From: Panorpa germanica
Lineage: Eukaryota > Arthropoda > Insecta > Mecoptera > Panorpidae
Length of the DNA: 64,000 nucleotides
Direction: 5' to 3'
Assembly (NCBI GenBank): GCA_963678705.1
Contig: OY783204.1
Coordinates: 13,836,759 to 13,900,758, forward strand
This document shows positions 211 through 62,413 of the stretch, piece by piece; position 1 is the stretch's first letter; every line of letters begins with the position of its first letter. Position numbers and translations under genes: made by a program. A model generated the notes under the pieces. The model was not told the origin of the DNA and did not search any database. It saw only the letters and a list, made by a program, of their open reading frames with translations.

Positions 211-383
211 TATTGAATTTTGTCATATTCAGTAGGCTTTGTTATTAATAAGCTTTTGTTTTTGTGTAATTATTGAAGTTATTAAATTGCCTTCAGCACA
301 TGGTTTTGTTACTCTTATTATTTTATATATTGATATAAAATATTTAATGGTTAATTTTGTTGTCAGTTCATAAAACAACAAAA
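211..383 (+). repeat. 5' LTR of copia A1
   Basis: 173 bp, starting TATTGAATTTTG and ending AACAACAAAA. It carries the 5'-specific base T at LTR position 116 (ttttatatat). Confidence 0.93.
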
Positions 384-401
384 GGTTATGGTACCCAGAT
401 G
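384..401 (+). other. Primer binding site of copia A1 (half-tRNA type)
   Basis: ggttatggtacccagatg abuts the 5' LTR. Drosophila copia is known to prime from an internal fragment of initiator tRNA-Met, with a site beginning GGTTATGGGCCCAG. The present site has the same start with small differences, so the same priming mode is inferred. Equivalent sites are at 6445 (B1), 13610 (C1), 39912 (A2), 45979 (B2), 52045 (C2) and 58107 (B3); B copies read ggttatggtacttagatg. Confidence 0.7.
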
Positions 402-486
402 TTTAAAAAAGAATAAATATTGGTTCTGCGTTTCTGTCGTATTATATTTTTTGGCTACCTAAAACTACATAATCACATGGTGAACA

Positions 487-786
487 ATGGATTCCCTTAG
501 AATACAAATTGGATTACTTCAAGGTAAAAATAACTTGACTACGTGGAAATACAAAGCAATTATTCTATTATGTAGTATAAAGGGAGCATTGGATGTTGTG
601 GAAGGAAAAATAAAAGCTCCTCAGCTGCCTGAGCTAGGTGCTACGACAACTGAGAAATCGGAATTTGACAAGAAACTTGAAGAATTTCTTAAAATTGATA
701 GCTGTGCACTGTTAGTGCTGACAACTAATATGACTGAGGACATTCTGAAGCTTGTAATGAGATTTACAAGTGTTGCTAAAGTTTGA
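487..786 (+). pseudogene. gag: copia A1 gag, N-terminal fragment
   Basis: 99 codons of the copia-type Gag start (MDSLRIQIGLLQGKNN), with the ATG in gaacaATGG about 103 bp after the 5' LTR. It ends where the Trp codon of the AEVWSEL stretch has become TGA. This copy has Leu where B copies have Trp in KNNWTT. Confidence 0.85.
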
Positions 787-843
787 AGTGAACTGAATCG
801 GCTTTTTGATAAGTCTGCTGAGGATTGAGCCTTTGATTTATGT

Positions 844-1284
844 TTGCAATTTTTTAGTTATAAGTGGAATGAATTAGATGAAATTGCAAGTCATACCTCT
901 AAATTGAAAAACATATGGAATGACTTAAATGTTGAACTTACAAAGGATGGAAGTTCAAAATTGCCAGATTTATTATTAACTTGTAAAATATTGGATTCTT
1001 TGCCTGAAAATTATTTTTCATTTAGATCTAGTTGGATGCTTGTGTCTAAAAAAGAAAGGACCTTAGATAACCTCACTACACAACTCTGTATGTATGAGAG
1101 GACGTTAAATGGGAAAGAGAACATTAGTCATGAAGCACTTCTCACTTATAAACCCTCTGGCAGTGGTAAGAATGAGAAATATAGAGGATATAAATCTAAC
1201 CAAAAGCAATATATTTGCAATTATTGTAAAGGTCCACATAAAATAATTTTTTGTAATAAATGGAAGGCAGATGGAAGACCTTAA
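844..1284 (+). pseudogene. gag: copia A1 gag, C-terminal fragment with zinc knuckle
   Basis: Continues Gag in the same frame after two nonsense codons. It includes the CCHC knuckle CNYCKGPHKIIFC, whose spacing C-X2-C-X3-H-X4-C is one residue shorter than the usual CX2CX4HX4C. It ends at a Lys to stop change (AAA to TAA) shared by A and C copies. Confidence 0.85.
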
Positions 1285-1342
1285 CCTGAGATAAGTAATA
1301 AATCAATAATAAATAATAAATAAGTCAAATATACTTTTTGCG

Positions 1343-2065
1343 TTGTCATGTCTTGTTCTGAATACTGAAAAAAGTGATGATTTTTTCTATGTTGACAGTG
1401 GAGCGACGAGTCACATAGTAAATAGAAGTGATGTGTTCTCTGAGTACACACCATTTGATGAAAATATTACTCGTAATGTGATGACTGCAAATGGTGATTG
1501 TGTTAAAGCTGTAGGTAAAGGGACTGTTCAGGTTCAAGCAATGACTAATAACCAATGGAACAACCTAACTTTAACAGATGTGTGGTACGTCCCTGATATT
1601 AAGAAAAATCTGTTTTCTACTCTAGCTGCTCATGACAAACAAATAAATAGTGAATTTGTTTCCAATGTTGCTGGTTGCCAACTTAAAATAAATGGGAAGC
1701 TTATGCTGTTTGGGAGTAGAAATCACCCTGGTGGTCTATATAAACTAGACATGAGAATTGTTTTTCCTCAAGTTTCTGTAAATACTGTGAATAGTAATGA
1801 TATTTTGCAACTGTACCATGAAAGGATGGGACATCAAAATAAACGGCATGTGAAAGCCACAATTAAAAGAGAACTTGGGATTGAGGTAAAAATAGACACT
1901 GAGCTGTGTGAAGGCTGTGTTTACGGTAAAACTCATAGAAGAAAATTTGGAACCAGAGATAAACCTGATAAACCAGGTATGCTAATATCTAGTGACGTAT
2001 GTGGTCCTTTTGAATCATCTAAATCTGGATTTAAATATTATGTGATATTTAAAGATGAACTCTAG
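1343..2065 (+). pseudogene. pol: copia A1 protease and integrase N-terminus
   Basis: Aspartic protease active site DSGATSH is followed by the integrase zinc-binding module (YHERMGHQN, then CEGCVYGK) and the first catalytic Asp in SSDVCGPF. It lies in a shifted frame relative to gag because of the 26-to-18-bp replacement, and ends at a 2-bp deletion. Confidence 0.85.
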
Positions 2066-2243
2066 ATTTAGATTTGTATTCTTTATGAGAGAGAAATCTG
2101 AAGTACCTGAAAAATTAAAATTAATGCTTGCTGCATCGGAAAATTCTGGTCACCGTGTAAGAGTTATTTTGAGTGACAATGGAGGGGAATACGATAGTAA
2201 TGTGGTCATAAAAATATTACAAGAGAAGGGGATTACCCAATGA
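2055..2243 (+). pseudogene. pol: copia A1 integrase core fragment
   Basis: Picks up the integrase core after the 2-bp deletion and contains the second catalytic Asp in LSDNGGEY. It ends at the TGA after GITQ that all seven copies share. Confidence 0.82.
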
Positions 2244-2321
2244 TTGACTATGCCATATACACCACAGCAAAATCCTTGTGAGAGGGAGAATCGCACTGTC
2301 GTAGAGACTGCATGAGCCATA

Positions 2322-3029
2322 ATGCATTCAAGAAATGATTTACCACAGTTCTTATGGGCAGAATTTGTAAATGCTGCCACATATGTATTAAATAGAACTG
2401 GACCTTCTAGTATTTTAGAAAAAACTCCATACGAGTTATGGCATGGGAAACGGCCATATATAAAGCATCTGAGAATAATAGGTTCAGATTGCTATGCTCA
2501 TGTTCCAAAACAGAAGAGAAAGAAAATGGACAAAAAGGCTCTGAAGGGTATACTTGTTGGCTATGACACTGATGGTTATAGAATTTGGTGCAAAAGTGGT
2601 ACTTTCATTCGAAGTCGTGATGTTGTATTTAATGAAAGACCTCTTTCATTAAGTGTTGGTGAAGTCACTGTTATACTAAATAAATTGTTAGAAAATGCAA
2701 ATATTGTACCTCCTCAGAAGGAAATTTGTAAAAATCCTCCTGATGCTGATGAGGATTTGTCTTCTAAAAGTTCACAAGAAGAATTATCGGGTGAGGATGA
2801 ATTGGAAGAATTGGAGAATTTTGGAAGATCTACCGTTCCTAGACTTCGTGACAGAAGTACTTTGAAATTACCTCAAAGATATACCGATTTTGTAATGTCT
2901 TGTGATACCATAATGAATGACTATAATGAACCAACTACATATGAAGAGGCTATGCAGAGCCAGTACTATTCTGAATGGAAACTTGCTATGGATCAGGAAA
3001 TGAAATCCTTATTTGACAACCGTACATAA
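2322..3029 (+). pseudogene. pol: copia A1 integrase C-terminal region and linker
   Basis: Integrase C-terminal part (LPQFLWAEFVNAATYVLNRT, then KGILVGYD) and the acidic linker before RT. It follows a CGA to TGA change shared only with A2, and ends at TAA after FDNRT. Confidence 0.82.
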
Positions 3030-3131
3030 GTATTAGAAAAATTGCCTGATGGTATAAAACCCATACCTTGTAAATGGGTATACAAAGTAAAGAAAAATCC
3101 AGATGGATCTATAGAGCGATTTAAAGCCTGA

Positions 3132-4475
3132 TTGGTTATAAAAGGGTATATGCAGAAGAAGGATGTTGATTACAATCAAACCTTCAGCCCAGTGGCTAGA
3201 GTGAGTACAGTTAGAGCTCTGATAAGCGTTGCTGCAGATGAAAAGTTGCAATTGACTCAATTTGATATATCTACTGCATTTCTATATGGAAATATTGATA
3301 ATGAAGAGAGTCATATTTATATGAAGCAACCTAATGGCTACAAAGATGGTAGTGCACTTGTTTGTAGACTGCAAAAAAGTTTGTATGGATTGAAACAAGC
3401 ACATCGATGCTGGAATCAGCGCTTTAATGAATTTTTGTATAAACTTGGGTTTAAGCAAAGTGATGCTGATCCATGTTTATTTGTAATGAAAAATGGAAAT
3501 GAAAAACTTATGTTGACTATATTTGTTGATGACGGACTTTTAGTTTCAAATATTCAAGAAATGTTAAACCAGTTTCTAATTAATCTGAAAAATGAATTTA
3601 AAATAACATATAAACCTGCAGATTTTTATTTGGGATTAGAAATTGAAAATGTTGAAAATGGAATAAAATTAAGTCAATCTTCTTATGCTAAAAGAATTTT
3701 AGAAAATCTTAAAATGAAAGAATGCAAACCTGTATCAACTCCACTAGAGACATCAACTACTACTAAAGCAGGGAAAGAAATGAATGACATTGCTGGTTAT
3801 TCATATAGACAGGTTGTAGGTGCACTAATGTACCTCATGATTGGATCAAGACCTGATTTAGCTTTTGCAGTGGGAGTATTGTCCAGGTCACTAGAAAATC
3901 CAACCTATCAAGACTGGTTGAAGGTTAAAAGGATTTTAAGATATATAAAAGGAACCTTGGATCGTGGAATCATTTATAAAATTAATTGTGAAAAAGTATT
4001 GTTATGCTATAGTGATGCTGATCATGAAGGGGATATTACAACTGGTAGGTCCACTTCTGGAGTATTAAGCATGTATGCAGGTAGCTGCATTTCCTGGATT
4101 AGTAAGCGGCAGTCATCAGTGGCCATCTCAACCACAGAAGCTGAGATTGTAGCAGCTAGTAAAGCAGCGAAGAAGGCTGTGTGGCTGAAAAGGCTGATGG
4201 CAGATATGGTGGAGCTACAAAGTAATCCTGACCTCTACATTGATAATAAAGCTGCTTTGAAACTTTCACAAAACCCGGAGTTCCATAAAAGAACTAAACA
4301 CATACGTGTAAGACACTTCTTTGCTCGGGAACTTGTAACCGAGGATGAAATCAACGTGAAGAAAATTTCATCTGAAAATCAATTAGCTGACTTATTGACA
4401 AAACCCTTGCCTAGACCGAGACACATAGTGTTATGTAATAAACTTGGACTTAGTGCTATCAAAAATAACCTATAA
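3132..4475 (+). pseudogene. pol: copia A1 reverse transcriptase-RNase H
   Basis: 447 codons, open to the natural end of pol. RT motifs include QFDISTAFLYG, KSLYGLKQA and the catalytic FVDDGLL. RNase H shows CYSDAD, TTEAEI, YIDNKAA and LADLLTKPLP. The first part of RT lies upstream of a TGA. HFFAREL near the end is an A-type marker also seen in C2. Confidence 0.88.
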
Positions 4476-4507
4476 AAGGAATTCCTAACTGTAAAATGAA
4501 GGGAAAG

Positions 4508-4680
4508 TATTGAATTTTGTCATATTCAGTAGGCTTTGTTATTAATAAGCTTTTGTTTTTGTGTAATTATTGAAATTATTAAATTGCCTTTAGCACATGG
4601 TTTTGTTACTCTTATTATTTTAAATATTGATATAAAATATTTAATGGTTAATTTTGTTGTCAGTTCATAAAACAACAAAA
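4508..4680 (+). repeat. 3' LTR of copia A1
   Basis: 173 bp after the polypurine tract, with the 3'-specific A at LTR position 116 (ttttaaatat). It carries cctttagcac, an A-type marker shared with the 3' LTRs of A2 and C2. Confidence 0.93.
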
Positions 4681-6266
4681 CTATAAATATCTCATATACA
4701 TACTTGTACTTATGCCTACTTACTTACCATTTGTTTGTTACCATTGAATGTTCATCAACGATCAATCACTATTTCCAAGAAAACCGCATATATTGTTCAC
4801 TTAATCACTTATAACAATTAATGCACTCTCATTATTATTTAAAACACGCATTTATATAAACTAATTCTTGTGTTTTAATATTATTTATAGTTACTGTTAT
4901 TCGACTTACTTGATAGTGGGCGGCAACCTTTTGTCTTCCGTATATTTGTAGTGTTTATAGGAGGTCTTCCTTATATAGCTCTACAGATTTCTTGAATTTC
5001 TTAACCACTTGATGTTTTAGCACTAACACTAACCTAATTATTATCACTTTTTTGTCTATCGCACTTATTTATGTCTTATATCAAACATCAAAGTTACAAA
5101 TTTGAGGTTATGTTTATAAAACCGCGTGTACGCGTAATGAAAAATTCGTTTTTAACACTGGTTTCCAACTGTCAAACTTTTGTAAAAACACTTTGTTTAG
5201 GTAAATTAACACAAATTTAAAACAAACTTAAATACTTTTCGTTTGAAAAAGTATTCATACAATTTATTTAATTTTTTTCCGTAATTAATTTCTCACTTTT
5301 AATCACTTTTTTCACCTAAAGTAGCAGGAGCCGATCACACACATAGTAGATAGGAACCACTTGTGTTTCAAAGCAATATTAACGTCCTTGTAAACCAATA
5401 CGTAGGTCTACCTTTTTGTATTAAGTCCCATCTGTCTTGCCAGAGCTTATGCATATATGCATTCATCTCTTTGGCAATATATTTGGTATCGTCTCCAGAC
5501 TTTTATCTTACAGCCGCATTAACTTGAAATCCTTGAAATTTGTCGCCCTAACTTTAAATCATCAAAATTTGATTTTTTTCAGTTCTAGCGTAATTTGAAA
5601 TTGAGTAAGTGCATAAGTGATTTTTAAATCTAAAGGAATTGTCCCCAATATCACCTGCACCACTTCTGTAGATACAGTTCTGCAACAACGCGTCATCGTC
5701 AATGACATAGTTGTTTGCATGGAAGATCTGGAAGATTGATCCTGTAATACCATGCTGAAGCACAATACACAACCATTGGCATAAATGCCCGCTTGTATAG
5801 TGTCGGCATAGTTACCGAGTTTAAGCTTTATTCCGTCCTTGTGACACGCGCAAGGTGTGTTACAAGTTTATCATTCGTTGTTACCCTATTTGTTTCGTAG
5901 CTTTGTAGCTTCAAGAAACTACAGATTTTATATATAGCAGGTCGAGAACGGCTTTCTAGTTGTTTTGTACTATTTGCACCGATAAGGATCACATTATCGT
6001 TGGCAAAACATACGTCTACACAACCTTTTGAGTAAGAAACACAATTCTCGTCAAATACCATGTTCCAGAGCTCAGGCCCCATTACGGATCGCTGAGGACA
6101 ACCTTTAGATAGTGGCCTTTTCATGGAATGGTAATCGGTTTGTAAAATAATGTTCGACAATGAAAATAGTTCCCCATAGCGCAGTAGACGTACCTATAGG
6201 TTTTTGCCGGTCTAATTCTTTGAAGGTCACTTGGCCACCGGACATCAACAAAGGCACACTGAATTT
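4681..6266. repeat. Satellite unit between A1 and B1 (S-AB1), 1586 bp
   Basis: One full unit from the right CTATA of A1 to the left CTATA of B1. Composite-type markers are ataaaaccgcg, gaatttcttaaccac and tagttgttttgtac. Its right part is R1 relic; the left ~0.6 kb shows no gene. Confidence 0.92.
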
Positions 6267-6271: not shown

Positions 6272-6444
6272 TATTGAATTTTGTCATATTCAGTAGGCTT
6301 TGTTATTAATAAGCTTTTGTTTTTGTGTAATTATTGAAATTATTAAATTGCCTTCAGCACATGGTTTTGTTACTCTTATTATTTTATATATTGATATAAA
6401 ATATTTAATGGTTAATTTTGTTGTCAGTTCATAAAACAACAAAA
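6272..6444 (+). repeat. 5' LTR of copia B1
   Basis: 173 bp, same ends as the other copies, with the 5'-type T at position 116. B-type leader downstream reads tacttagatg and ttggatacc. Confidence 0.93.
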
Positions 6445-6547
6445 GGTTATGGTACTTAGATGTTTAAAAAAGAATAAATATTGGTTCTGCGTTTCTGTCG
6501 TATTATATTTTTTGGATACCTAAAACTACATAATCACATGGTGAACA

Positions 6548-8314
6548 ATGGATTCCCTTAGAATACAAATTGGATTACTTCAAGGTAAAAATAACTGGAC
6601 TACGTCGAAATACAAAGCAATTATTCTATTACGTAGTATAAAGGGAGCATTGGATGTTGTGGAAGGAAAAATAAAAGCTCCTCAGCTGCCTGAGCTAGGT
6701 GCTACGACAACTGAGAAATCGGAATTTGACAAGAAACTTGAAGAATTTCTTAAAATTGATAGCTGTGCACTGTTAGTGCTGACAACTAATATGACTGAGG
6801 ACATTCTGAAGCTTGTAATGAGATTTACAAGTGTTGCTGAAGTTTGGAGTGAACTGAATCGGCTTTTTGATGGGTCTGCTGAGGATCGAGCCTTTGATTT
6901 ATGTTTGCAATTTTTTAGTTATAAGAGGAATGAATTAGATGAAATTGCAAGTCATACCTCTAAATTAAAAAACATATGGAATGGCTTAAATGTTGAACTT
7001 ACAAAGGATGGAAGTTCAAAATTGCCAGATTTATTATTAACTTGTAAAATATTGGATTCTTTGCCTGAAAATTATTTTTCATTTAGATCTAGTTGGATGC
7101 TTGTGTCTAAGAAAGAAAGGACCTTAGATAACCTCACTACACAACTCTGTATGTATGAAAGGACGTTAAATGGGAAAAAGAACATTAGTCATAAAGCACT
7201 TCTCACTCATAAACCCTCTGGCAGTGGTAAGAATGAGAAATATAGAGGATATAAATCTAACCAAAAGCAATATATTTGCAATTATTGTAAAGGTCCACAT
7301 AAAATAATTTTTTGTAATAAATGGAAGGCAGATGGAAGACTTAAACCTGAGATAAGTAATAAATCAAATGATAAGGCATGTAGGACAAATGAGTCAAATA
7401 TACTTTTTGCGTTGTCATGTCTTGTTCTGAATACTGAAAAAAGTGATGATTTTTTCTATGTTGACAGTGGAGCGACGAGTCACATAGTAAATAGAAGTGA
7501 TGTGTTCTCTGAGTACACACCATTTGATGAAAATATTACTCGTAATGTGATGACTGCAAATGGTGATTGTGTTAAAGCTGTAGGTAAAGGGACTGTTCAG
7601 GTTCAAGCAATGACTAATAACCAATGGAACAACCTAACTTTAACAGATGTGTGGTACGTCCTTGATATTAAGAAAAATCTGTTTTCTACTCTAGCTGCTC
7701 ATGACAAACAAATAAATAGTGAATTTGTTTCCAATGTTGCTGGTAGCCAACTTAAAATAAATGGGAAGCTTATGCTGTTTGGGAGTAGAAATCACCCTGG
7801 TGGTCTATATAAACTAGACATGAGAATTGTTTTTCCTCAAGTTTCTGTAAATACTGTGAATAGTAATGATATTTTGCAACTGTACTATGAAAGGATGGGA
7901 CATCAAAATAAACGGCATGTGAAAGCCACAATTAAAAGAGAACTTGGGATTGAGGTAAAACTGGACACTAAGCTGTGTGAAGGCTGTGTTTACGGTAAAA
8001 CTCATAGAAGAAAATTTGGAACCAGAGATAAACCTGATAAACCAGGTATGCTAATATCTAGTGACGTATGTGGTCCTTTTGAATCATCTAAATCTGGATT
8101 TAAATATTATGTGATATTTAAAGATGAATTCTCTAGATTTAGATTTGTAAACTTTATGAGAGAGAAATCTGAAGTACCTGAAAAATTAAAATTAATGCTT
8201 GCTGCATCGGAAAATGCTGGTCACCGTGTTAGAGTTATTTTAAGTGACAATGGAGGGGAATACGATAGTAATGTGGTCAGAAAAATATTACAAGAGAAGG
8301 GGATTACCCAATGA
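6548..8314 (+). pseudogene. gag-pol: copia B1 gag-protease-integrase (first open part)
   Basis: 588 codons with Gag, zinc knuckle, aspartic protease and two thirds of integrase in one uninterrupted frame, which is how copia encodes its polyprotein. It ends at the TGA after GITQ. The integrase HHCC module reads YYERMGHQ, with Tyr for the first His. This is the best-preserved gag in the left block. Confidence 0.9.
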
Positions 8315-9100
8315 TTGACTATGCCATATACACCACAGCAAAATCCTTGTGAGAGGGAGAATCGCACTGTCGTAGAGACTGCCCGAGCCATAATGCATTC
8401 AAGAAATGATTTACCACAGTTCTTATGGGCAGATTTTGTAAATGCTGCCACATATGTATTAAATAGAACTGGACCTTCTAGTATTTTAGAAAAAACTCCA
8501 TACGAGTTATGGCATGGGAAACGGCCATATATAAAGCATCTGAGAATAATAGGTTCAGATTGCTATGCTCATGTTCCAAAACAGAAGAGAAAGAAAATGG
8601 GCAAAAAGGCTCTGAAGGGTATACTTGTTGGCTATGACACTGATGGTTATAGAATTTGGTGCAAAAGTGGTACTTTCATTCGAAGTCGTGATGTTGTATT
8701 TAATGAAAGACCTCTTTCATTAAGTGTTGGTGAAGTCACTGTTATACCAACTAAATTGTTAGAAAATGCAAATATTGTACCTCCTCAGAAGGAAATTTGT
8801 AAAAATCCTCCTGATGCTGATGAGGATTTGTCTTCTAAAAGTTCACAAGAAGAATTATCGGGTGAGGATGAATTGGAAGAATTGGAGAATTTTGGAAGAT
8901 CTACCGTTCCTAGACTTCGTGACAGAAGTACTTTGAAACCACCTCAAAGATATACCGATTTTGTAATGTCTTGTGATACCATAATGAATGACTATAATGA
9001 ACCAACTACATATGAAGAGGCTATGCAGAGCCAGTACTATTCTGAATGGAAACTTGCTGTGGATCAGGAAATAAAATCCTTATTTGACAACCGTACATAA
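8315..9100 (+). pseudogene. pol: copia B1 integrase C-terminal part and linker
   Basis: In frame with the preceding part, starting after the TGA. PYTPQQNPCERENRT carries the third catalytic residue (Glu). The segment before this Glu is one residue shorter than the NGVAER-type sequence typical of the family. It ends at TAA in place of Trp after FDNRT. Confidence 0.88.
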
Positions 9101-9202
9101 GTATTAGAAAAATTGCCTGATGGTATAAAACCCATACCTTGTAAATGGGTATACAAAGTAAAGAAAAATCCAGATGGATCTATAGAGCGATTTAAAGCCT
9201 GA

Positions 9203-10546
9203 TTGGTTATAAAAGGGTATATGCAGAAGAAGGATGTTGATTACAATCAAACCTTCAGCCCAGTGGCTAGAATAAGTACAGTTAGAGCTCTGATAAGCGT
9301 TGCTGCAGATGAAAAGTTGCAATTGACTCAATTTGATATATCTACTGCATTTCTATATGGAAATATTGATAATGAAGGGAGTCATATTTATATGAAGCAA
9401 CCTAATGGCTACAAAGATGGTAGTGCACTTGTTTGTAGACTGCAAAAAAGTTTGTATGGATTGAAACAAGCACCTCGATGCTGGAATCAGCGCTTTAATG
9501 AATTTTTGTATAAACTTGGGTTTAAGCAAAGTGATGCTGATCCATGTTTATTTGTAATGAAAAATGGAAATGAAAAACTTATGTTGACTATATTTGTTGA
9601 TGACGGACTTTTAGCTTCAAATAGTCAAGAAATGTTAAACCAGTTTCTAATTATTCTGAAAAATGAATTTAAAATAACATATAAACCTGCAGATTTTTAT
9701 TTGGGATTAGAAATTGAAAATGTTAAAAATGGAATAAAATTAAGTCAATCTTCTTATGCTAAAGGAATTTTAGAAAATCTTAAAATGGAAGAATGCAAAC
9801 CTGTATCAACTCCACTAGAGACATCAACTACTACTGAAGCAGAGAAAGAAATTAATGACATTGCTGGTTATTCATATAGACAGGTTGTAGGTGCACTAAT
9901 GTACCTCATGATTGGATCAAGACCTGATTTAGCTTTTGCAGTGGGAGTATTGTCCAGGTCACTAGAAAATCCAACCTATCAAGACTGGTTGAAGGTTAAA
10001 AGGATTTTAAGATATATAAAAGGAACCTTGGATCGTGGAATCATTTATAAAATTAATTGTGAAAAAGTATTGTTATGCTATAGTGATGCTGATCATGAAG
10101 GGGATATTACAACTGGTAGGTCCACTTCTGGAGTATTAAGCATGTATGCAGGTGGCTGCATTTCCTGGATTAAAAAGCGGCAGTCATCAGTGGCCATCTC
10201 AACCACAGAAGCTGAGATTGTAGCAGCTAGTGAAGCAGCGAAGGAGGCTGTGTGGCTGAAAAGGCTGATGGCAGATATAGTGGAGCTACAAAGTAATCCT
10301 GACCTCTACATTGATAATAAAGCAGCTTTGAAACTTTCACAAAACCCGGAGTTCCATAAAAGAACTAAACACATACGTGTAAGACACTTCTTTGTTCGGG
10401 AACTTGTAACCGAGGATGAAATCAACGTGAAGAAAATTTCATCTGAAAATCAATTAGCTGACTTATTGACAAAACCCTTGCCTAGACTGAGACACATAGT
10501 GTTATGTAATAAACTTGGACTTAGTGCTATCAAAAATAACCTATAA
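9203..10546 (+). pseudogene. pol: copia B1 reverse transcriptase-RNase H
   Basis: 447 codons after TGA 9200-9202, with QFDISTAF, FVDDGLL and complete RNase H motifs. About 33 further RT codons lie between the two stops (9101-9199). B1 has WIKKRQ near the RNase H start, a variant otherwise found only in A2. Confidence 0.9.
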
Positions 10547-10568
10547 AAGGAATTCTTAACTGTAAAAT

Positions 10569-10578
10569 GAAGGGAAAG
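10569..10578 (+). other. Polypurine tract of copia B1
   Basis: gaagggaaag directly before the 3' LTR, the expected plus-strand primer. Identical tracts are at 4498, 17721, 44032, 50103, 56156 and 62231. Confidence 0.75.
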
Positions 10579-10751
10579 TATTGAATTTTGTCATATTCAG
10601 TAGGCTTTGTTATTAATAAGCTTTTGTTTTTGTGTAATTATTGAAATTATTAAATTGCCTTCAGCACATGGTTTTGTTACTCTTATTATTTTAAATATTT
10701 ATATAAAATATTTAATGGTTAATTTTGTTGTCAGTTCATAAAACAACAAAA
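10579..10751 (+). repeat. 3' LTR of copia B1
   Basis: 173 bp, 3'-type A at position 116, and the B-type variant aaatatttatataaaat. Confidence 0.93.
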
Positions 10752-11650: not shown

Positions 11651-11671
11651 TCCTTGTGAGAGGGAGGAAAG
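11651..11671. other. Duplication junction with filler from copia integrase
   Basis: tccttgtgagagggag at 11651-11666 matches the integrase coding sequence of the copia copies (for example 8344-8359), then ggaaag leads into an LTR. It is not part of satellite or LTR, so it looks like templated filler at a breakpoint. Confidence 0.8.
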
Positions 11672-11844
11672 TATTGAATTTTGTCATATTCAGTAGGCTT
11701 TGTTATTAATAAGCTTTTGTTTTTGTGTAATTATTGAAATTATTAAATTGCCTTCAGCACATGGTTTTGTTACTCTTATTATTTTAAATATTTATATAAA
11801 ATATTTAATGGTTAATTTTGTTGTCAGTTCATAAAACAACAAAA
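11672..11844 (+). repeat. Extra LTR, duplicated 3' LTR of B1
   Basis: 173 bp with the 3'-type A at position 116 and B-type aaatatttatataaaat, so it is a copy of the B1 3' LTR and not a solo LTR made by LTR-LTR recombination. It lacks a left CTATA. Confidence 0.9.
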
Positions 11845-14510: not shown

Positions 14511-14568
14511 CCTGAGATAAGTAATAAATCAATAATAAATAATAAATAAGTCAAATATACTTTTTGCG

Positions 14569-17413: not shown

Positions 17414-17419
17414 AGGCTG

Positions 17420-50080: not shown

Positions 50081-50112
50081 AAGGAATTCTTAACTGTAAA
50101 ATGAAGGGAAAG

Positions 50113-50285
50113 TATTGAATTTTGTCATATTCAGTAGGCTTTGTTATTAATAAGCTTTTGTTTTTGTGTAATTATTGAAATTATTAAATTGCCTTCAGCA
50201 CATGGTTTTGTTACTCTTATTATTTTAAATATTTATTTAAAATATTTAATGGTTAATTTTGTTGTCAGTTCATAAAACAACAAAA
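50113..50285 (+). repeat. 3' LTR of copia B2
   Basis: 173 bp, 3'-type A at position 116, variant aaatatttatttaaaat. Confidence 0.93.
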
Positions 50286-51866: not shown

Positions 51867-51871
51867 CTATA
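50973..51871 (-). pseudogene. R1-like RT relic in S-BC2
   Basis: Pieces 51760-51434 (108 codons, two residues shorter because of the 6-bp deletion before KGCPQRSVMG) and 51437-51126. Confidence 0.76.
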
Positions 51872-52044
51872 TATTGAATTTTGTCATATTCAGTAGGCTT
51901 TGTTATTAATAAGCTTTTGTTTTTGTGTAATTATTGAAATTATTTAATTGCCTTCAGCACATGGTTTTGTTACTCTTATTATTTTATATATTGATATAAA
52001 ATATTTAATGGTTAATTTTGTTGTCAGTTCATAAAACAACAAAA
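51872..52044 (+). repeat. 5' LTR of copia C2
   Basis: 173 bp, 5'-type T at position 116, attatttaattgcc as in C1. Confidence 0.93.
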
Positions 52045-52249
52045 GGTTATGGTACCCAGATGTTTAAAAAAGAATAAATATTGGTTCTGCGTTTCTGCCG
52101 TATTATATTTTTTGGCTACCTAAAACTACATAATCACATGGTGAACAATGGATTCCCTTAGAATACAAATTGGATTACTTTAAGGTAAAAATAACTGGAC
52201 TACGTGGAAATACAAAGCAATTATTCTATTACGTAGTATATAGGGAGCA

Positions 52250-52945
52250 TTGGATGTTGTGGAAGGAAAAATAAAAGCTCCTCAGCTGCCTGAGCTAGGT
52301 GCTACGACAACTGAGAAATCGGAATTTGACAAGAAACTTGAAGAATTTCTTAAAATTGATAGCTGTGCACTGTTAGTGCTGACAACTAATATGACTGAGG
52401 ACATTCTGAAGCTTGTATTGAGATTTACAAGTGTTGCTGAAGTTTGGAGTGAACTGAATCGGCTTTTTGATGGGTCTGCTGAGGATCGAGCCTTTGATTT
52501 ATGTTTGCAATTTTTTAGTTATAAGAGGAATGAATTAGATGAAATTGCAAGTCATACCTCTAAATTGAAAAACATATGGAATGACTTAAATGTTGAACTT
52601 ACAAAGGATGGAAGTTCAAAATTGCCAGATTTATTATTAACTTGTAAAATATTGGATTCTTTGCCTGAAAATTATTTTTTATTTAGATCTAGTTGGATGC
52701 TTGTGTCTAAAAAAGAAAGGACCTTAGATAACCTCACTACACAACTCTGTATGTATGAGAGGACGTTAAATGGGAAAGAGAACATTAGTCATGAAGCACT
52801 TCTCACTCATAAACCCTCTGGCAGTGGTAAGAATAAGAAATATAGAGAATATAAATCTAACCAAAAGCAATATATTTGCAATTATTGTAAAGGTCCACAT
52901 AAAATAATTTTTTGTAATAAATGGAATGCAGATGGAAGACCTTAA
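52250..52945 (+). pseudogene. gag: copia C2 gag fragment
   Basis: Same extent as the C1 gag piece; includes the zinc knuckle. Two nonsense codons (52181-52183 and near 52240) separate it from the start ATG. Confidence 0.84.
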
Positions 52946-53003
52946 CCTGAGATAAGTAATAAATCAATAATCAATAATAAATAAGTCAAATATACTTTTT
53001 GCG

Positions 53004-53906
53004 TTGTCATGTCTTGTTCTGAATACTGAAAAAAGTGATAATTTTTTCTATGTTGACAGTGGAGCGACGAGTCACATAGTAAATAGAAGTGATGTGTTCT
53101 CTGAGTACACACCATTTGATGAAAATATTACTCGTAATGTGATGACTGCAAATGGTGATTGTGTTAAAGCTGTAGGTAAAGGGACTGTTCAGGTTCAAGC
53201 AATGACTAATAACCAATGGAACAACCTAACTTTAACAGATGTGTGGTACGTCCCTGATATTAAGAAAAATCTGTTTTCTACTCTAGCTGCTCATGACAAA
53301 CAAATAAATAGTGAATTTGTTTCCAATGTTGCTGGTTGCCAACTTAAAATAAATGGGAAGCTTATGCTGTTTGGGAGTAGAAATTACCCTGGTGGTCTAT
53401 ATAAACTAGACATGAGAATTGTTTTTCCTCAAGTTTCTGTAAATACTGTGAATAGTAATGATATTTTGCAACTGTACCATAAAAGGATGGGACATCAAAA
53501 TAAACGGCATGTGAAAGCCACAATTAAAAGAGAACTTGGGATTGAGGTAAAACTAGACACTGAGCTGTGTGAAGGCTGTGTTTACGGTAAAACTCATAGA
53601 AGAAAATTTGGAACTAGAGATAAACCTGATAAACCAGGTATGCTAATATCTAGTGACGTATGTGGTCCTTTTGAATCATCTAAATCTGGATTTAAATATT
53701 ATGTGATATTTAAAGATGAATTCTCTAGATTTAGATTTGTATACTTTATGAGAGAGAAATCTGAAGTACCTGAAAAATTAAAATTAATGCTTGCTGCATC
53801 GGAAAATGCTGGTCACCGTGTAAGAGTTATTTTGAGTGACAATGGACGGGAATACGATAGTAATGTGGTCAGAAAAATATTACAAGAGAAGGGGATTACC
53901 CAATGA
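53004..53906 (+). pseudogene. pol: copia C2 protease and integrase core
   Basis: 300 codons: DSGATSH, YHKRMGHQ, CEGC, SSDVCGPF and SDNGREY. It keeps Ser where C1 has TAA, and ends at the shared TGA. Confidence 0.86.
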
Positions 53907-54188
53907 TTGACTATGCCATATACACTACAGCAAAATCCTTGTGAGAGGGAGAATCGCACTGTCGTAGAGACTGCCCGAGCCATAATGCATTCAAGAAATG
54001 ATTTACCACAGTTCTTATGAGCAGAATTTGTAAATGCTGCCACATATGTATTAAATAGAACTGGACCTTCTAGTATTTTAGAAAAAACTCCATACGAGTT
54101 ATGGCATGGGAAACGGCCATATATAAAGCATCTGAGAATAATAGGTTCAGATTGCTATGCTCATGTTCCAAAACAGAAGAGAAAGAAA

Positions 54189-54641
54189 ATGGACAAAAAG
54201 GCTCTGAAGGGTATACTTGTTGGCTATGACACTGATGGTTATAGAATTTGGTGCAAAAGTGGTACTTTCATTCGAAGTCGTGATGTTGTATTTAATGAAA
54301 GACCTCTTTCATTAAGTGTTGGTGAAGTCACTGTTATACCAAATAAATTGTTAGAAAATGCAAATATTGTACCTCCTCAGAAGGAAATTTGTAAAAATCC
54401 TCCTGATGCTGATGAGGATTTGTCTTCTAAAAGTTCACAAGAAGAATTATCGGGTGAGGATGAATTGGAAGAATTGGAGAATCTTGGAAGATCTACCGTT
54501 CCTAGACTTCGTGACAGAAGTACTTTGAAACCACCTCAAAGATATACCGATTTTGTAATGTCTTGTGATACCATAATGAATGACTATAATGAACCAACTA
54601 CATATGAAGAGGCTATGCAGAGCCAGTACTATTGTGAATGA
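54189..54641 (+). pseudogene. pol: copia C2 integrase C-terminal region and linker
   Basis: KGILVGYDTDG and acidic linker, bounded by TGA 54018-54020 upstream and the C-type TGA after YYCE. Confidence 0.8.
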
Positions 54642-54794
54642 AAACTTGCTATGGATCAGGAAATGAAATTCTTATTTGACAACCGTACATAAGTATTAGA
54701 AAAATTGCCTGATGGTATAAAACCCATACCTTGTAAATGGGTATACAAAGTAAAGAAAAATCCAGATGGATCTATAGAGCGATTTAAAGCCTGA

Positions 54795-55424
54795 TTGGTT
54801 ATAAAAGGGTATATGCAGAAGAAGGATGTTGATTACAATCAAACCTACAGCCCAGTGGCTAGAATGAGTACAGTTAAAACTCTGATAAGCGTTGCTGCAG
54901 ATGAAAAGTTGCAATTGACTCAATTTGATATATCTACTGCATTTCTATATGGAAATATTGATAATGAAGGGAGTCATATTTATATGAAGCAACCTAATGG
55001 CTACAAAGATGGTAGTGCACTTGTTTGTAGACTGCAGAAGAGTTTGTATGGATTGAAACAAGCACCTCGATGCTGGAATCAGCGCTTTAATGAATTTTTG
55101 TATAAACTTGGGTTTAAGCAAAGTGATGCTGATCCATGTTTATTTGTAATGAAAAATGGAAATAAAAAACTTATGTTGACTATATTTGTTGATGACGGAC
55201 TTTTAGCTTCAAATAGTCAAGAAATATTAAACCAGTTTCTAATTAATCTGAAAAATGAATTTAAAATAACATATAAACCTGCAGATTTTTATTTGGGATT
55301 AGAAATTGAAAATGTTAAAAATGGAATAAAATTAAGTCAATCTTCTTATGCTAAAAGAATTTTAGAAAATCTTAAAATGGAAGAATGCAAACCTGTGTCA
55401 ACTCCAGACATCAACTACTACTGA
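54795..55424 (+). pseudogene. pol: copia C2 reverse transcriptase fragment
   Basis: QFDISTAF and FVDDGLL present; frame lost at the C-type 5-bp deletion. Confidence 0.85.
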
Positions 55425-55437
55425 AGCAGGGAAAGAA

Positions 55438-56133
55438 ATGAATGACATTGCTGGTTATTCATATAGACAGGTTGTAGGTGCACTAATGTACCTCATGATT
55501 GGATCAAGACCTGATTTAGCTTTTGCAGTGGGAGTATTGTCCAGGTCACTAGAAAATCCAACCTATCAAGACTGGTTGAAGGTTAAAAGGATTTTAAGAT
55601 ATATAAAAGGAACCTTGGATCGTGGAATCATTTATAAAATTAATTGTGAAAAAGTATTGTTATGCTATAGTGATGCTGATCATGAAGGGGATATTACAAC
55701 TGGTAGGTCCACTTCTGGAGTATTAAGCATGTATGCAGGTGGCTGCATTTCCTGGATTAGTAAGCGGCAGTCATCAGTGGCCATCTCAACCACAGAAGCT
55801 GAGATTGTAGCAGCTAGTAAAGCAGCGAAGGAGGCTGTGTGGCTGAAAAGGCTGATGGCAGATATGGTGGAGCTACAAAGTAATCCTGACCTCTACATTG
55901 ATAATAAAGCAGCTTTGAAACTTTTACAAAACCCGGAGTTCCATAAAAGAACTAAACACATACGTGTAAGACACTTCTTTGCTCGGGAACTTGTAACCGA
56001 GGATGAAATCAACGTGAAGAAAATTTCATCTGAAAATCAATTAGCTGACTTATTGACAAAACCCTTGCCTAGACCGAGACACATAGTGTTATGTAATAAA
56101 CTTGGACTTAGTGCTATCAAAAATAACCTATAA
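55438..56133 (+). pseudogene. pol: copia C2 RT end and RNase H, A-type
   Basis: 231 codons to the natural pol end, without the stop that splits this region in C1. SKAAKEAVWLKRL, MADMVEL and HFFAREL follow A1. Confidence 0.86.
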
Positions 56134-56165
56134 AAGGAATTCCTAACTGTAAAATGAAGGGAAAG

Positions 56166-56338
56166 TATTGAATTTTGTCATATTCAGTAGGCTTTGTTAA
56201 TAATAAGCTTTTGTTTTTGTGTAATTATTGAAATTATTAAATTGCCTTTAGCACATGGTTTTGTTACTCTTATTATTTTAAATATTGATATAAAATATTT
56301 AATGGTTAATTTTGTTGTCAGTTCATAAAACAACAAAA
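56166..56338 (+). repeat. 3' LTR of copia C2
   Basis: 173 bp, 3'-type A at position 116; gttaataataagc and cctttagcac as in the A2 3' LTR. Confidence 0.93.
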
Positions 56339-57928
56339 CTATAAATATCTCATATACATACTTGTACTTATGCCTACTTACTTACCATTTGTTTGTTACC
56401 ATTGAATGTTCATCAACGATCAATCACTATTTCCAAGAAAACCGCATATATTGTTCACTTAATCACTTATAACAATTAATGCACTCTCATTATTATTTAA
56501 AACACGCATTTATATAAACTAATTCTTGTGTTTTAATATTATTTATAGTTTCTGTTATTCGACTTACTTGATAGTGGGCGGCAACCTTTTGTCTTCCGTA
56601 TATTTGTAGTGTTTATAGGAGGTCTTCCTTATATAGCTCTACAGATTTCTTAATTTTCTTAACCACTTGATGTTTTAGCACTAACACTAACCTAATTATT
56701 ATCACTTTTTTGTCTATCGCACTTATTAATGTCTTATATCAAACATTAAAGTTACAAATTTGAGGTTATGTTTATAAAACCGCGTGTACGCGTAATGAAA
56801 AATTCGTTTTTAACACTGGTTTCCAACTTTCAAACTTTTGTAAAAACACTTTGTTTAGGTAAATTAACACAAATTTAAAACAAACTTAAATACTTTTCGT
56901 TTGAAAAAGTATTCATACAATTTATTTAATTTTTTTCCGTAATTAATTTCTCACTTTTAATCACTTTTTTCACCTAAAGTAGCAGGAGCCGATCACACAC
57001 ATAGTAGATAGGAACCACTTGTGTTTCAAAGCAATATTAACGTCCTTGTAAACCAATACGTAGGTCTACCTTTTTGTATTAAGTCCCATCTGTCTTGCCA
57101 GAGCTTATTTCACTCTCACATTACTCATCTCTTTGGCAATATATTTGGTATCGTCTCCAGACTTTTATCTTACAGCCGCATTTACTTGAAATCCTTGAAA
57201 TTTGTCGCCCTAATTTTAAATCATCAAAATTTGATTTTTTTCAGTTCTAGCGTAATTTGAAATTGAGTAAGTGCATAAGTGATTTTTAAATCTAAAGGAA
57301 TTGTCCCCAATATCACCTGCACCACTTCTGTAGATACAGTTCTGCAACAACGCGTCATCGTCAATGACATAGTTGTTTGCATGGAAGATCTGGAAGATTG
57401 ATCCTGTAATACCATGCTGAAGCACAATACACAACCATTGGCATAAATGCCCGCTTGTATAGTGTCGGCATAGTTACCGAGTTTAAGCTTTATTCCGTCC
57501 TTGTGACACGCGCAAGGTGTGTTACAAGTTTATCATTCGTTGTTACCGTATTTGTTTCGTAGCTTTGTAGTTTCAAGAAACTACAGATTTTATATATAGC
57601 AGGTCGAGAACGGCTTTCTAGTTGTTTTGTACTATTTGCACCGATAAGGATCACATTATCGTTGGCAAAACATACGTCTACACAACCTTTTGAGTAAGAA
57701 ACACAATTCTCGTCAAATACCATGTTCCAGAGCTCAGGCCCCATTACGGATCGCTGAGGACAACCTTTAGATAGTTGCCTTTTCATGGAATGGTAATCGG
57801 TTTGTAAAATAATGTTCGACAATGAAAATAGTTCCCCATAGCGCAGTAGACGTACCTATAGGTTTTTGCCGGTCTAATTCTTTGAAGGTCACTTGGCCAC
57901 CGGACATCAACAAAGGCACACTAAATTT
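56339..57928. repeat. Satellite unit between C2 and B3 (S-CB), 1590 bp
   Basis: Same type as S-AB1 and S-AB2 (gttcatcaacg, gtgtttcaaag, cactaaatttc). The palindromic core gcatatatgcat is replaced by ttcactctcacattac near 57109-57124, giving the 4 extra bases. Confidence 0.92.
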
Positions 57929-57933
57929 CTATA
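57026..57933 (-). pseudogene. R1-like RT relic in S-CB
   Basis: Pieces 57822-57490 and 57427-57224. The post-RT tail is altered by the replaced palindrome. Confidence 0.75.
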
Positions 57934-58106
57934 TATTGAATTTTGTCATATTCAGTAGGCTTTGTTATTAATAAGCTTTTGTTTTTGTGTAATTATTGAA
58001 ATTATTAAATTGCCTTCAGCACATGGTTTTGTTACTCTTATTATTTTATATATTGATATAAAATATTTAATGGTTAATTTTGTTGTCAGTTCATAAAACA
58101 ACAAAA
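57934..58106 (+). repeat. 5' LTR of copia B3
   Basis: 173 bp, 5'-type T at position 116. Confidence 0.93.
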
Positions 58107-58209
58107 GGTTATGGTACTTAGATGTTTAAAAAAGAATAAATATTGGTTCTGCGTTTCTGTCGTATTATATTTTTTGGATACCTAAAATTACATAATCACA
58201 TGGTAAACA

Positions 58210-59586
58210 ATGGATTCCCTTAGAATACAAATTGGATTACTTCAAGGTAAAAATAACTGGACTACGTGGAAATACAAAGCAATTATTCTATTACGTAGTA
58301 TAAAGGGAGCATTGGATGTTGTGGAAGGAAAAATAAAAGCTCCTCAGCTGCCTGAGCTAGGTGCTACGACAACTAAGATATCGGAATTTGACAAGAAACT
58401 TGAAGAATTTCTTAAAATTGATAGCTGTGCACTGTTAGTGCTGACAACTAATATGACTGAGGACATTCTGAAGCTTGTAATGAGATTTACAAGTGTTGCT
58501 GAAGTTTGGAGTGAACTGAATCGGCTTTTTGATGGGTCTGCTGAGGATCGAGCCTTTGATTTATGTTTGCAATTTTTTAGTTATAAGAGGAATGAATTAG
58601 ATGAAATTGCAAGTCATACCTCTAAATTGAAAAACATATGGAATGACTTAAATGTTGAACTTACAAAGGATGGAAGTTCAAAATTGCCAGATTTATTATT
58701 AACTTGTAAAATATTAGATTCTTTGCCTGAAAATTATTTTTCATTTAGATCTAGTTGGATGCTTGTGTCTAAGAAAGAAAGGACCTTAGATAACCTCACT
58801 ACACAACTCTGTATGTATGAGAGGACGTTAAATGGGAAAGGGAACATTAGTCATAAAGCACTTCTCACTCATAAACCCTCTGGCAGTGGTAAGAATGAGA
58901 AATATAGAGGATATAAATCTAACCAAAAGCAATATATTTGCAATTATTGTAAAGGTCCACATAAAATAATTTTTTGTAATAAATGGAAGGCAGATGGAAG
59001 ACCTAAACCTGAGATAAGTAATAAATCAAATGATAAGGCATGTAGGACAAATGAGTCAAATATACTTTTTGCGTTGTCATGTCTTGTTCTGAATACTGAA
59101 AAAAGTGATGATTTTTTCTATGTTGACAGTGGAGCGACGAGTCACATAGTAAATAGAAGTGATGTGTTCTCTGAGTACACACCATTTGATGAAAATATTA
59201 CTCGTAATGTGATGACTGCAAATGGTGATTGTGTTAAAGCTGTAGGTAAAGGGACTGTTCAGGTTCAAGCAATGACTAATAACCAATGGAACAACCTAAC
59301 TTTAACAGATGTGTGGTACGTCCCTGATATTAAGAAAAATCTGTTTTCTACTCTAGCTGCTCATGACAAACAAATAAATAGTGAATTTGTTTCCAATGTT
59401 GCTGGTTGCCAACTTAAAATAAATGGGAAGCTTATGCTGTTTGGGAGTAGAAATCACCCTTGTGGTCTATATAAACTAGACATGAGAATTGTTTTTCCTC
59501 AAGTTTCTGTAAATACTGTGAATAGTAATGATATTTTGCAACTGTACTATGAAAGGATGAGACATCAAAATAAACGGCATGTGTAA
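58210..59586 (+). pseudogene. gag-pol: copia B3 gag-protease and start of integrase
   Basis: 458 codons: Gag, zinc knuckle, DSGATSH, and the integrase zinc module up to YYERMRHQNKRHV, where a private TAA ends it. Confidence 0.88.
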
Positions 59587-59709
59587 GCCACAATTAAAAG
59601 AGAACTTGGGATTGAGGTAAAACTGGACACTAAGCTGTGTGAAGGCTGTGTTTACGGTAAAACTCATAGAAGAAAATTTGGAACCAGAGATAAACCTGAT
59701 AAACCAGGT

Positions 59710-59976
59710 ATGCTAATATCTAGTGACGTATGTGGTCCTTTTGAATCATCTAAATCTGGATTTAAATATTATGTGATATTTAAAGATGAATTCTCTAGAT
59801 TTAGATTTGTATACTTTATGAGAGAGAAATCTGAAGTACCTGAAAAATTAAAATTAATGCTTGCTGCATCGGAAAATGCTGGTCACCGTGTAAGAGTTAT
59901 TTTAAGTGACAATGGAGGGGAATACGATAGTAATGTGGTCAGAAAAATATTACAAGAGAAGGGGATTACCCAATGA
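59710..59976 (+). pseudogene. pol: copia B3 integrase core fragment
   Basis: Holds SSDVCGPF and SDNGGEY, the first two catalytic Asp residues, up to the shared TGA. The frame is in fact open from 59587. Confidence 0.82.
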
Positions 59977-60543
59977 TTGACTATGCCATATACACCACAG
60001 CAAAATCCTTGTGAGAGGGAGAATCGCACTGTCGTAGAGACTGCCCGAGCCATAATGCATTCAAGAAATGATTTACCACAGTTCTTATGGGCAGATTTTG
60101 TAAATGCTGCCACATATGTATTAAATAGAACTGGACCTTCTAGTATTTTAGAAAAAACTCCATACGAGTTATGGCATGGGAAACGGCCATATATAAAGCA
60201 TCTGAGAATAATAGGTTCAGATTGCTATGCTCATGTTCCAAAACAGAAAAAAAAGAAAATGGGCAAAAAGGCTCTGAAGGGTATACTTGTTGGCTATGAC
60301 ACTGATGGTTATAGAATTTGGTGCAAAAGTGGTACTTTCATTCGAAGTCGTGATGTTGTATTTAATGAAAGACCTCTTTCATTAAGTGTTGGTGAAGTCA
60401 CTGTTATACCAAATAAATTGTTAGAAAATGCAAATATTGTACCTCCTCAGAAGGAAATTTGTAAAAATCCTCCTGATGCTGATGAGGATTTGTCTTCTAA
60501 AAGTTCACAAGAAGAATTATCGGGTGAGGATGAATTGGAATAA
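59977..60543 (+). pseudogene. pol: copia B3 integrase C-terminal part
   Basis: PYTPQQNPCERENRT with the catalytic Glu, then KGILVGYD and the acidic linker, cut by a private GAA to TAA in the Glu-rich stretch. Confidence 0.85.
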
Positions 60544-60762
60544 TTGGAGAATTTTGGAAGATCTACCGTTCCTAGACTTTGTGACAGAAGTACTTTGAAA
60601 CCACCTCAAAGATATACCGATTTTGTAATGTCTTGTGATACCATAAAGAATTACTATAATGAACCAACTACATATGAAGAGGCTATGCAGAGCCAGTACT
60701 ATTCTGAATGGAAACTTGCTGTGGATCAGGAAATAAAATCCTTATTTGACAACCGTACATAA
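60544..60762 (+). pseudogene. pol: copia B3 integrase-RT linker fragment
   Basis: 72 codons between the private TAA and the shared TAA after FDNRT; contains PPQRYTDFVMSCDTI. Confidence 0.8.
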
Positions 60763-60864
60763 GTATTAGAAAAATTGCCTGATGGTATAAAACCCATACC
60801 TTGTAAATGGGTATACAAAGTAAAGAAAAATCCAGATGGATCTATAGAGCGATTTAAAGCCTGA

Positions 60865-62208
60865 TTGGTTATAAAAGGGTATATGCAGAAGAAGGATGTT
60901 GATTACAATCAAACCTTCAGCCCAGTGGCTAGAATAAGTACAGTTAGAGCTCTGATAAGCGTTGCTGCAGATGAAAAGTTGCAATTGACTCAATTTGATA
61001 TATCTACTGCATTTCTATATGGAAATATTGATAATGAAGGGAGTCATATTTATATGAAGCAACCTAATGGCTACAAAGATGGTAGTGCACTTGTTTGTAG
61101 ACTGCAAAAAAGTTTGTATGGATTGAAACAAGCACCTCGATGCTGGAATCAGCGCTTTAATGAATTTTTGTATAAACTTGGGTTTAAGCAAAGTGATGCT
61201 GATCCATGTTTATTTGTAATGAAAAATGGAAATGAAAAACTTATGTTGACTATATTTATTGATGACGGACTTTTAGCTTCAAATAGTCAAGAAATGTTAA
61301 ACCAGTTTCTAATTAATCTGAAAAATGAATTTAAAATAACATATAAACCTGCAGATTTTTATTTGGGATTAGAAATTGAAAATGTTAAAAATGGAATAAA
61401 ATTAAGTCAATCTTCTTATGCTAAAAGAATTTTAGAAAATCTTAAAATGGAAGAATGCAAACCTGTATCAACTCCACTAGAGACATCAACTACTACTGAA
61501 GCAGGGAAAGAAATTAATGACATTGCTGGTTATTCATATAGACAGGTTGTAGGTGCACTAATGTACCTCATGATTGGATCAAGACCTGATTTAGCTTTTG
61601 CAGTTGGAGTATTGTCCAGGTCACTAGAAAATCCAACCTATCAAGACTGGTTGAAGGTTAAAAGGATTTTAAGATATATAAAAGGAACCTTGGATCGTGG
61701 AATCATTTATAAAATTAATTGTGAAAAAGTATTGTTATGCTATAGTGATGCTGATCATGAAGGGGATATTACAACTGGTAGGTCCACTTCTGGAGTATTA
61801 AGCATGTATGCAGGTGGCTGCATTTCCTGGATTAGTAAGCGGCAGTCATCAGTGGCCATCTCAACCACAGAAGCTGAGATTGTAGCAGCTAGTAAAGCAG
61901 CGAAGGAGGCTGTGTGGCTGAAAAGGCTGATGGCAGATATAGTGGAGCTACAAAGTAATCCTGACCTCTACATTGATAATAAAGCAGCTTTGAAACTTTC
62001 ACAAAACCCGGAGTTCCATAAAAGAACTAAACACATACGTGTAAGACACTTCTTTGTTCGGGAACTAGTAACCGAGGATGAAATCAACGTGAAGAAAATT
62101 TCATCTGAAAATCAATTAGCTGACTTATTGACAAAACCCTTGCCTAGACCGAGACACATAGTGTTATGTAATAAACTTGGACTTAGTGCTATCAAAAATA
62201 ACCTATAA
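60865..62208 (+). pseudogene. pol: copia B3 reverse transcriptase-RNase H
   Basis: 447 codons, QFDISTAF, FIDDGLL and complete RNase H; almost the same as the B2 piece but with AVWLKRL and SNPDLY unmutated. Confidence 0.9.
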
Positions 62209-62240
62209 AAGGAATTCTTAACTGTAAAATGAAGGGAAAG

Positions 62241-62413
62241 TATTGAATTTTGTCATATTCAGTAGGCTTTGTTATTAATAAGCTTTTGTTTTTGTGTAAT
62301 TATTGAAATTATTAAATTGCCTTCAGCACATGGTTTTGTTACTCTTATTATTTTAAATATTTATATAAAATATTTAATGGTTAATTTTGTTGTCAGTTCA
62401 TAAAACAACAAAA
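62241..62413 (+). repeat. 3' LTR of copia B3
   Basis: 173 bp, 3'-type A at position 116, B-type aaatatttatataaaat. Confidence 0.93.

Follow-up and report, generated by a model that had tools for sequence, protein, structure and literature searches.

The window analysed here, a stretch of 64,000 nucleotides of the Panorpa germanica genome (contig OY783204.1), holds a complete copia retrotransposon that has become part of a satellite monomer, and the copies within the window strongly support one insertion of the element followed by amplification at the DNA level. The window is a tandem array from end to end, in which a 1586-bp satellite unit recurs throughout and continues past both window ends. 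Two composite arrays, made of copia plus satellite, are separated by 14 copia-free satellite monomers (17904-39733). The composite arrays contain seven complete copia inserts of 4467 to 4480 bp, all in the same orientation and at the same satellite base, and their units are spaced 6053 to 6075 bp apart (about 6.05-6.08 kb). Self-alignments of the window extend over 11-20 kb at 97-99% identity, so chance is ruled out as the source of the repeat pattern.

All of the copia inserts and satellite monomers are read on the forward strand. The left array begins with the 3' end of a satellite monomer (1-205), which borders copia copy 1 (211-4680) on its left, and continues with copy 2 (6272-10751) and copy 3 (13437-17903); the right array contains copy 4 (39739-44214), copy 5 (45806-50285), copy 6 (51872-56338) and copy 7 (57934-62413). 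In 7/7 inserts the copia sequence begins immediately 3' of TTTCTATA and finishes immediately 5' of CTATAAATATC. The empty junctions between monomers of the 17904-39733 block read TTT-CTATA-AATATC with a single CTATA (13/13), while the filled junctions read TTT-CTATA-[insert]-CTATA-AATATC (7/7); the single CTATA of the former and the double CTATA of the latter identify it as a perfect 5-bp target-site duplication. The first-pass annotation had placed seven copia elements at an identical satellite base, flanked by CTATA, in a composite of about 6.06 kb, and the junctions and the unit spacing confirm this. The use of one base in one orientation by all seven copies is also what would be expected from repeated independent insertions of copia with a preference for one satellite site (CTATA at a fixed monomer position), and the review PMC12628747, citing McGurk and Barbash, gives insertion-site preference as the main route to dimers of transposable elements (TEs) in Drosophila melanogaster. 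We nevertheless consider repeated insertion extremely improbable here; as many as 13 of 13 junctions between the arrays carry the same site without copia, and the long terminal repeats (LTRs), the satellite and the distribution of stop codons all stand against it.

Both LTRs, 173 bp each, were located in 7/7 inserts: 211-383 and 4508-4680 in copy 1, 6272-6444 and 10579-10751 in copy 2, 13437-13609 and 17731-17903 in copy 3, 39739-39911 and 44042-44214 in copy 4, 45806-45978 and 50113-50285 in copy 5, 51872-52044 and 56166-56338 in copy 6, and 57934-58106 and 62241-62413 in copy 7. The two LTRs of a newly integrated LTR element are identical. In the window, the 5' and 3' LTRs within one copy differ at 2-5 of 173 positions, and column 116 of the LTR alignment is T in 7/7 5' LTRs and A in 8/8 3' LTRs, the eighth being that of a deleted copy described below. 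Seven independent insertions are disfavoured because fresh insertions would start with identical LTRs and each would then need to gain the identical asymmetry at column 116.

The satellite that surrounds the inserts gives the same picture. The tree of satellite monomers included 20 monomers, the shortened one among them; the two partial monomers (1-205 and 10752-11651) were used for distances only, and the monomer at 62414 was counted as composite, its right-hand copia being known by one base only. All six complete composite monomers group in a single clade (support 100/99), again contrary to what repeated site-specific insertion would give, and the composite label changes once on the tree. 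The mean satellite difference is 1.58% among the six composite monomers, 2.84% among plain monomers and 4.64% between the two groups, with monomers 36562 and 38149 and the shortened one placed in neither group. The copia copies differ pairwise by 0.40-1.81% (gaps and 30 columns per piece end excluded), and over six units, in 15 pairwise comparisons, copia differs by 1.32% on average and the satellite downstream of it by 1.67%, with a rank correlation of 0.71 over pairs that are not independent. This comparison included copy 2 with its truncated monomer and left aside copy 3, which has plain satellite downstream. Counted over the five coding pieces with an assigned frame, variable sites are distributed over codon positions 1, 2 and 3 as 59:47:32 (11 sites in an unframed piece being excluded), with no excess at third positions, which is the opposite of what is expected for lineages under purifying selection. 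The suggestion of a single insertion with DNA-level amplification, already made in the first reading of this sequence, thus gains support from the LTR asymmetry, the composite clade, the linked divergence of copia and satellite, the absence of a third-position excess and the 12.13-kb period described next.

The copia copies fall into three haplotypes, A (copies 1 and 4), B (copies 2, 5 and 7) and C (copies 3 and 6), which follow one another as A, B, (deleted B), C in the left array and as A, B, C, B in the right array. The composite-type satellite downstream of them has two subtypes: s1 (4681-6266, 44215-45800 and 56339-57928) lies downstream of copia A or C in 3/3 cases, and s2 (truncated 10752-11651, 11845-13431, 50286-51866 and 62414-63994) lies downstream of B in 4/4 cases; these counts include the deleted copy and the truncated monomer, and copy 3 has a plain monomer downstream. 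The last s2 monomer is followed by CTATA and one base, and this last base of the window (64000), a T, is compatible with the start of a further copia copy. Since the satellite subtypes track the copia haplotypes, the repeat unit is a pair of composites of 12.13 kb, and the self-alignment of the window is accordingly better at an offset of 12.1 kb (98.6%) than at 6.07 kb (97.6%). The composites are therefore a dimeric higher-order repeat with alternating s1 and s2 and three copia haplotypes, a structure that goes beyond the earlier description. Stops specific to a subgroup of copies go with the satellite subtype, which is a further point against independent insertions. At a longer range, 178-11652 matches 39706-51186 at 99.1% (39.5-kb offset) and 177-11652 matches 51838-63314 at 98.8%.

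Tandem arrays of 12-kb units that are 98-99% identical are hard to assemble, and it might be supposed that pieces of the contig derived from one or two true composites have been repeated or misordered. We think such an artefact very improbable: the copies differ by up to 1.81% with a structured sharing of variants and are far from exact duplicates, they carry copy-specific and group-specific indels, and the deleted copy has a junction of its own. In this eighth copy (11652-11844), the satellite monomer is interrupted at 11651. Next come 15 bp found in all seven copies between the pre-integrase and reverse transcriptase (RT) regions, a few bases from the terminal part of the internal region, and a complete 3' LTR (11672-11844) of haplotype B, which has the same bases at the variable sites as the 3' LTRs in copies 2 and 7. 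Where the two can be aligned, the truncated monomer to the left of this copy is 0.0% different from the monomer at 11845. We rejected the interpretation of 11652-11844 as a solo LTR on account of the retained internal-region bases, and clean solo LTRs number 0 among the 8 copies in the window.

The edges of the arrays bear on the mechanism of amplification. We defined composite-specific bases as those of 26 columns at which the six composite monomers agree and at most 3/13 other monomers share the base, the shortened monomer being excluded. The monomer to the left of copy 4 (38149-39733), the last of the 14, carries 12/13 of these bases from about 39171 rightward and 2/13 before about 39122 (Fisher p 0.0002, for a split picked after seeing the data). 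This left-edge monomer of the right array thus looks recombinant, a chimera that is plain-like to about 39122 and composite-like from about 39171. Its left neighbour, monomer 36562, shares 8 of the same 13 bases, so the composite-like haplotype is not limited to the edge monomer. Unequal exchange between the monomers on either side of the original insertion would give the inner monomers an end resembling the left copia flank, and the left-edge result is compatible with this.

A single insertion could also have been amplified by way of an extrachromosomal circle of copia and satellite, with rolling-circle copying and reinsertion. Such a route is expected to produce exact units, and blocks do recur far apart (99.1% identity across 11.5 kb at the 39.5-kb offset); a circle reinserted by homology would give edges of identical appearance. 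We regard it as possible but the less likely course, because the edge monomers keep the satellite phase on both sides and the left-edge chimera is what homologous exchange predicts.

Several observations weigh against a single insertion with simple tandem amplification, or at least complicate it. Column 116 is the sole one of 11 variable LTR columns that splits all 5' from all 3' LTRs, and in principle this difference might owe its spread to homogenisation between copies; a spread by gene conversion would still need exchange at the DNA level. Labelling monomers by whether they directly follow a copia costs two changes on the satellite tree, since the monomer to the right of copy 3 groups among plain monomers. 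This monomer (17904-19489) has 0/26 composite-specific bases, so that the two edges are asymmetric, and over its first 600 columns it is at about equal distance from composite and plain monomers; the right edge therefore gives no support to unequal exchange. Among informative two-state sites, 12/67 conflict with groups A, B and C and with the pair of copies 5 and 7 within B. The same groups emerge from trees of three internal pieces, with weak support for A and B in the last third of the insert (53/65 and 68/90). Two codons of the RT region are stops in 6/7 copies and are not stops in copy 4, the nearest relative of which is copy 1, with which it shares a gag stop; a clean tree cannot explain this absence, and gene conversion or parallel change is needed. 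Finally, the comparison covers the copies in the window, and dispersed copies elsewhere might interleave with them. The conflicting sites point to gene conversion between units, and the pattern of the two RT-region stops suggests a short converted tract.

Three other features of the copia copies were recorded. Copy 4 has, at 42556-42752, four sites unlike those of the other six copies and a private 6-bp insertion, which may mark a conversion tract in one of copies 1 and 4. A second segment, close to the gag end (40808-40850 in copy 4 and equivalents), has dense differences and an 8-bp indel that separate haplotype B from A and C, and it looks converted or template-switched. Throughout the copies (39739-44214 and equivalents) there are about 10 tandem double substitutions, mostly of one pattern, among 167 variable columns with gapped columns included.

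With these observations taken together, we consider it very probable that one copia element inserted into a pre-existing 1586-bp satellite and was then amplified with the satellite as DNA units. The insertion would have occurred in one monomer and created the CTATA target-site duplication, and the two LTRs would have come to differ at a single base either ahead of the amplification or in its early stages. Copia and one monomer may then have been duplicated as a 6.06-kb unit through unequal homologous exchange between the satellite monomers on either side. The units would have diverged into types, after which a pair of units (12.13 kb) presumably became the repeated unit, leading to the present arrangement of A-B-(deleted B)-C, 14 monomers and A-B-C-B, with short exchanges resembling gene conversion probably continuing between units in the meantime. 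Both unequal crossing over in preference to a rolling circle and the order of these events are what we infer from the arrangement.

The first-pass annotation had also argued from nonsense codons shared among the copies. Stops were called in the reading frame of copy 4, with stops in 41594-41843 uncounted and with the frame at the gag-protease boundary unsettled. In this frame, the argument is only partly right: premature stops are shared inside subgroups, and the two RT-region codons are stops in six copies; none is in frame in 7/7 copies. One further codon, where the pre-integrase piece ends, is a stop in 7/7 by the columns of copy 4, and the frame is shifted just before it in five copies, so this stop is out of frame there. 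We therefore rejected nonsense codons as a proof of single insertion, none being common to all copies. For the same reason, the element that inserted was probably less damaged than the present copies. In the frame used, every one of the seven copies is interrupted by one or more premature stops, so the copies here are probably unable to move by themselves now.

The inserts are of the Ty1/copia type. Two LTRs and a 5-bp target-site duplication, as in Ty1/copia elements, are present in 7/7 inserts, and Pfam scans of five pieces of copy 4 recognised gag (Retrotran_gag_2, 1e-06 and 2.9e-07), gag-pre-integrase (gag_pre-integrs, 2.4e-09) and the copia RT domain (RVT_2, 7.8e-68), together with Pol_BBD (7.2e-24) and SH3_retrovirus (2.7e-23). 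The gag_pre-integrs match (in 40841-41593) lies upstream of that of RVT_2 (in 41844-43409), which is compatible with an integrase-before-RT order. No integrase core domain was matched by Pfam in the scanned pieces of copy 4, with 41594-41843 lying outside the scan, and the last piece (43410-44009), in which RNase H is expected, matched no Pfam family at 0.001 and gave a chance-level match only at 10. The LTRs start with TATTG and end with CAAAA in 15/15 cases and so do not have TG...CA termini, which are usual and not obligatory, non-canonical termini being found in other LTR elements. Directly after the 5' LTR, where a primer-binding site is expected, GGTTATGG is present in 7/7 copies; it may resemble an internal part of the initiator methionine tRNA. 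No solved structure matched the copia RT piece at 0.001. Searches of the viral_contigs collection with the RT piece gave no pattern match, and those of genome_contigs with the pre-integrase piece gave 11 pattern matches with 0 confirmed; both collections are of viral or prokaryotic DNA, and these results carry little weight for a eukaryote.

The plain monomers of the 17904-39733 block are 1585-1587 bp each, apart from one. From 17904 to 38149 the spacing of satellite copies is 1586-1587 bp with the single exception of 1210 bp, which is due to a clean internal deletion of 376 bp at 25002-25003 in one plain monomer (24248-25457). The block 17904-25014 is duplicated at 25458-32573 (7.1 kb, 98.2%, offset of about 7.55 kb), so the plain array also has higher-order structure. 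Within the monomer a 29-bp motif occurs twice in tandem (e.g. 18739-18795), and 15 such places are listed across the window. A scan of 17000-46000 found no RNA gene inside the satellite at the gathering score, and an exact 31-base satellite pattern had 0 matches in genome_contigs, again of little weight for a eukaryote given the viral and prokaryotic content searched.

The minus strand of the satellite has open stretches, 121 codons long at most, that match RVT_1 weakly. Ten of these were listed; one of them is the 121-codon stretch at 45365-45727, with equivalents in other monomers. In one scan RVT_1 was the top match in 7/7 stretches, with E values of 0.0088-0.054 and 13.6-16.2 bits in the profile register 109-167 of 205; the curated cut-off of RVT_1 is 29.6 bits, and no scanned satellite stretch reaches it. 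In one further stretch RVT_1 came second to PAN_3 (E 0.14), and two shorter stretches (one among the ten) had no RVT_1 match, only PAN_3 at E 0.038 and 0.08. The next stretch downstream of the RVT_1-like one gave nothing, or a chance-level match to Imm3, in 5/5 cases. We took Imm3 and PAN_3 in satellite stretches (E 0.038-0.16, below the cut-off) as chance. Solved structures gave chance-level matches only (E 0.78 and above), NCBIfam had no match to two of the stretches, and two minus-strand stretches searched in viral_contigs gave 12 and 7 pattern matches with 0 confirmed, which means little for a eukaryote. The RVT_1-like stretch is probably a decayed fragment of a non-LTR retrotransposon, possibly one of R1-clade likeness. 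If this is right, the window is doubly nested, with a remnant of a long interspersed nuclear element (LINE) in a satellite, copia in that satellite, and the whole in a composite satellite.

One window thus preserves a layered record of a satellite that probably contains a LINE remnant, a single copia insertion, a doubling into a 12-kb higher-order repeat and gene conversion. A difference between 5' and 3' LTRs that is shared among copies offers a simple general test of DNA-level amplification versus site-specific retrotransposition. The composite also shows that a whole LTR element can persist as a satellite unit, although its LTRs could recombine to solo LTRs. More speculatively, and we would give this little credence, the composite might be a self-sustaining satellite family in which copia multiplies mainly by array dynamics, with two LTR promoters per 6-kb unit driving transcription of the satellite and feeding silencing (e.g. 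as a source of PIWI-interacting RNAs), and with most genomic copies of the element in such arrays.

Comparable cases come from several hosts. ATHILA elements in the centromere satellites of Arabidopsis have reportedly been duplicated after integration, and TE copies in the composite repeats of the telomere-to-telomere human genome are said to have been multiplied by satellite homogenisation after integration; both cases are close in kind, with a different host, element and scale. Satellites derived from TEs (reviewed in PMC12628747), such as maize CRM1TR and CRM4TR (PMC3648361), resemble the repeats of the window in having retrotransposon sequence in a tandem repeat homogenised by recombination, and the review states that complete TEs are also tandemized. 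CRM1TR and CRM4TR contain part of the LTR and untranslated region (PMC3648361), whereas the element in the window is complete, has both LTRs and the target-site duplication, and lies in an older satellite monomer. Multiple tandem copies of one LTR element, like those found here, occur in rice, where they are ascribed to a single insertion (PMC11899658), and in Cassandra arrays, which are ascribed to recombination (PMC7215508). In the rice tandems neighbours share internal LTRs and in the Cassandra arrays the LTR alternates with the internal domain, whereas in the window each copy has its own two LTRs and a satellite monomer, whole between complete units, separates it from the next. A TE and a satellite amplified together are indicated by the title of PMC4857426, the available part of which has no base-precise composite monomer with a dimeric period. 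Among the open-access matches listed, no report described a complete copia that had been amplified within a satellite monomer as a dimeric higher-order repeat. The formation of a transposon-containing composite satellite is a process known in outline, and this window is a clean example of it.

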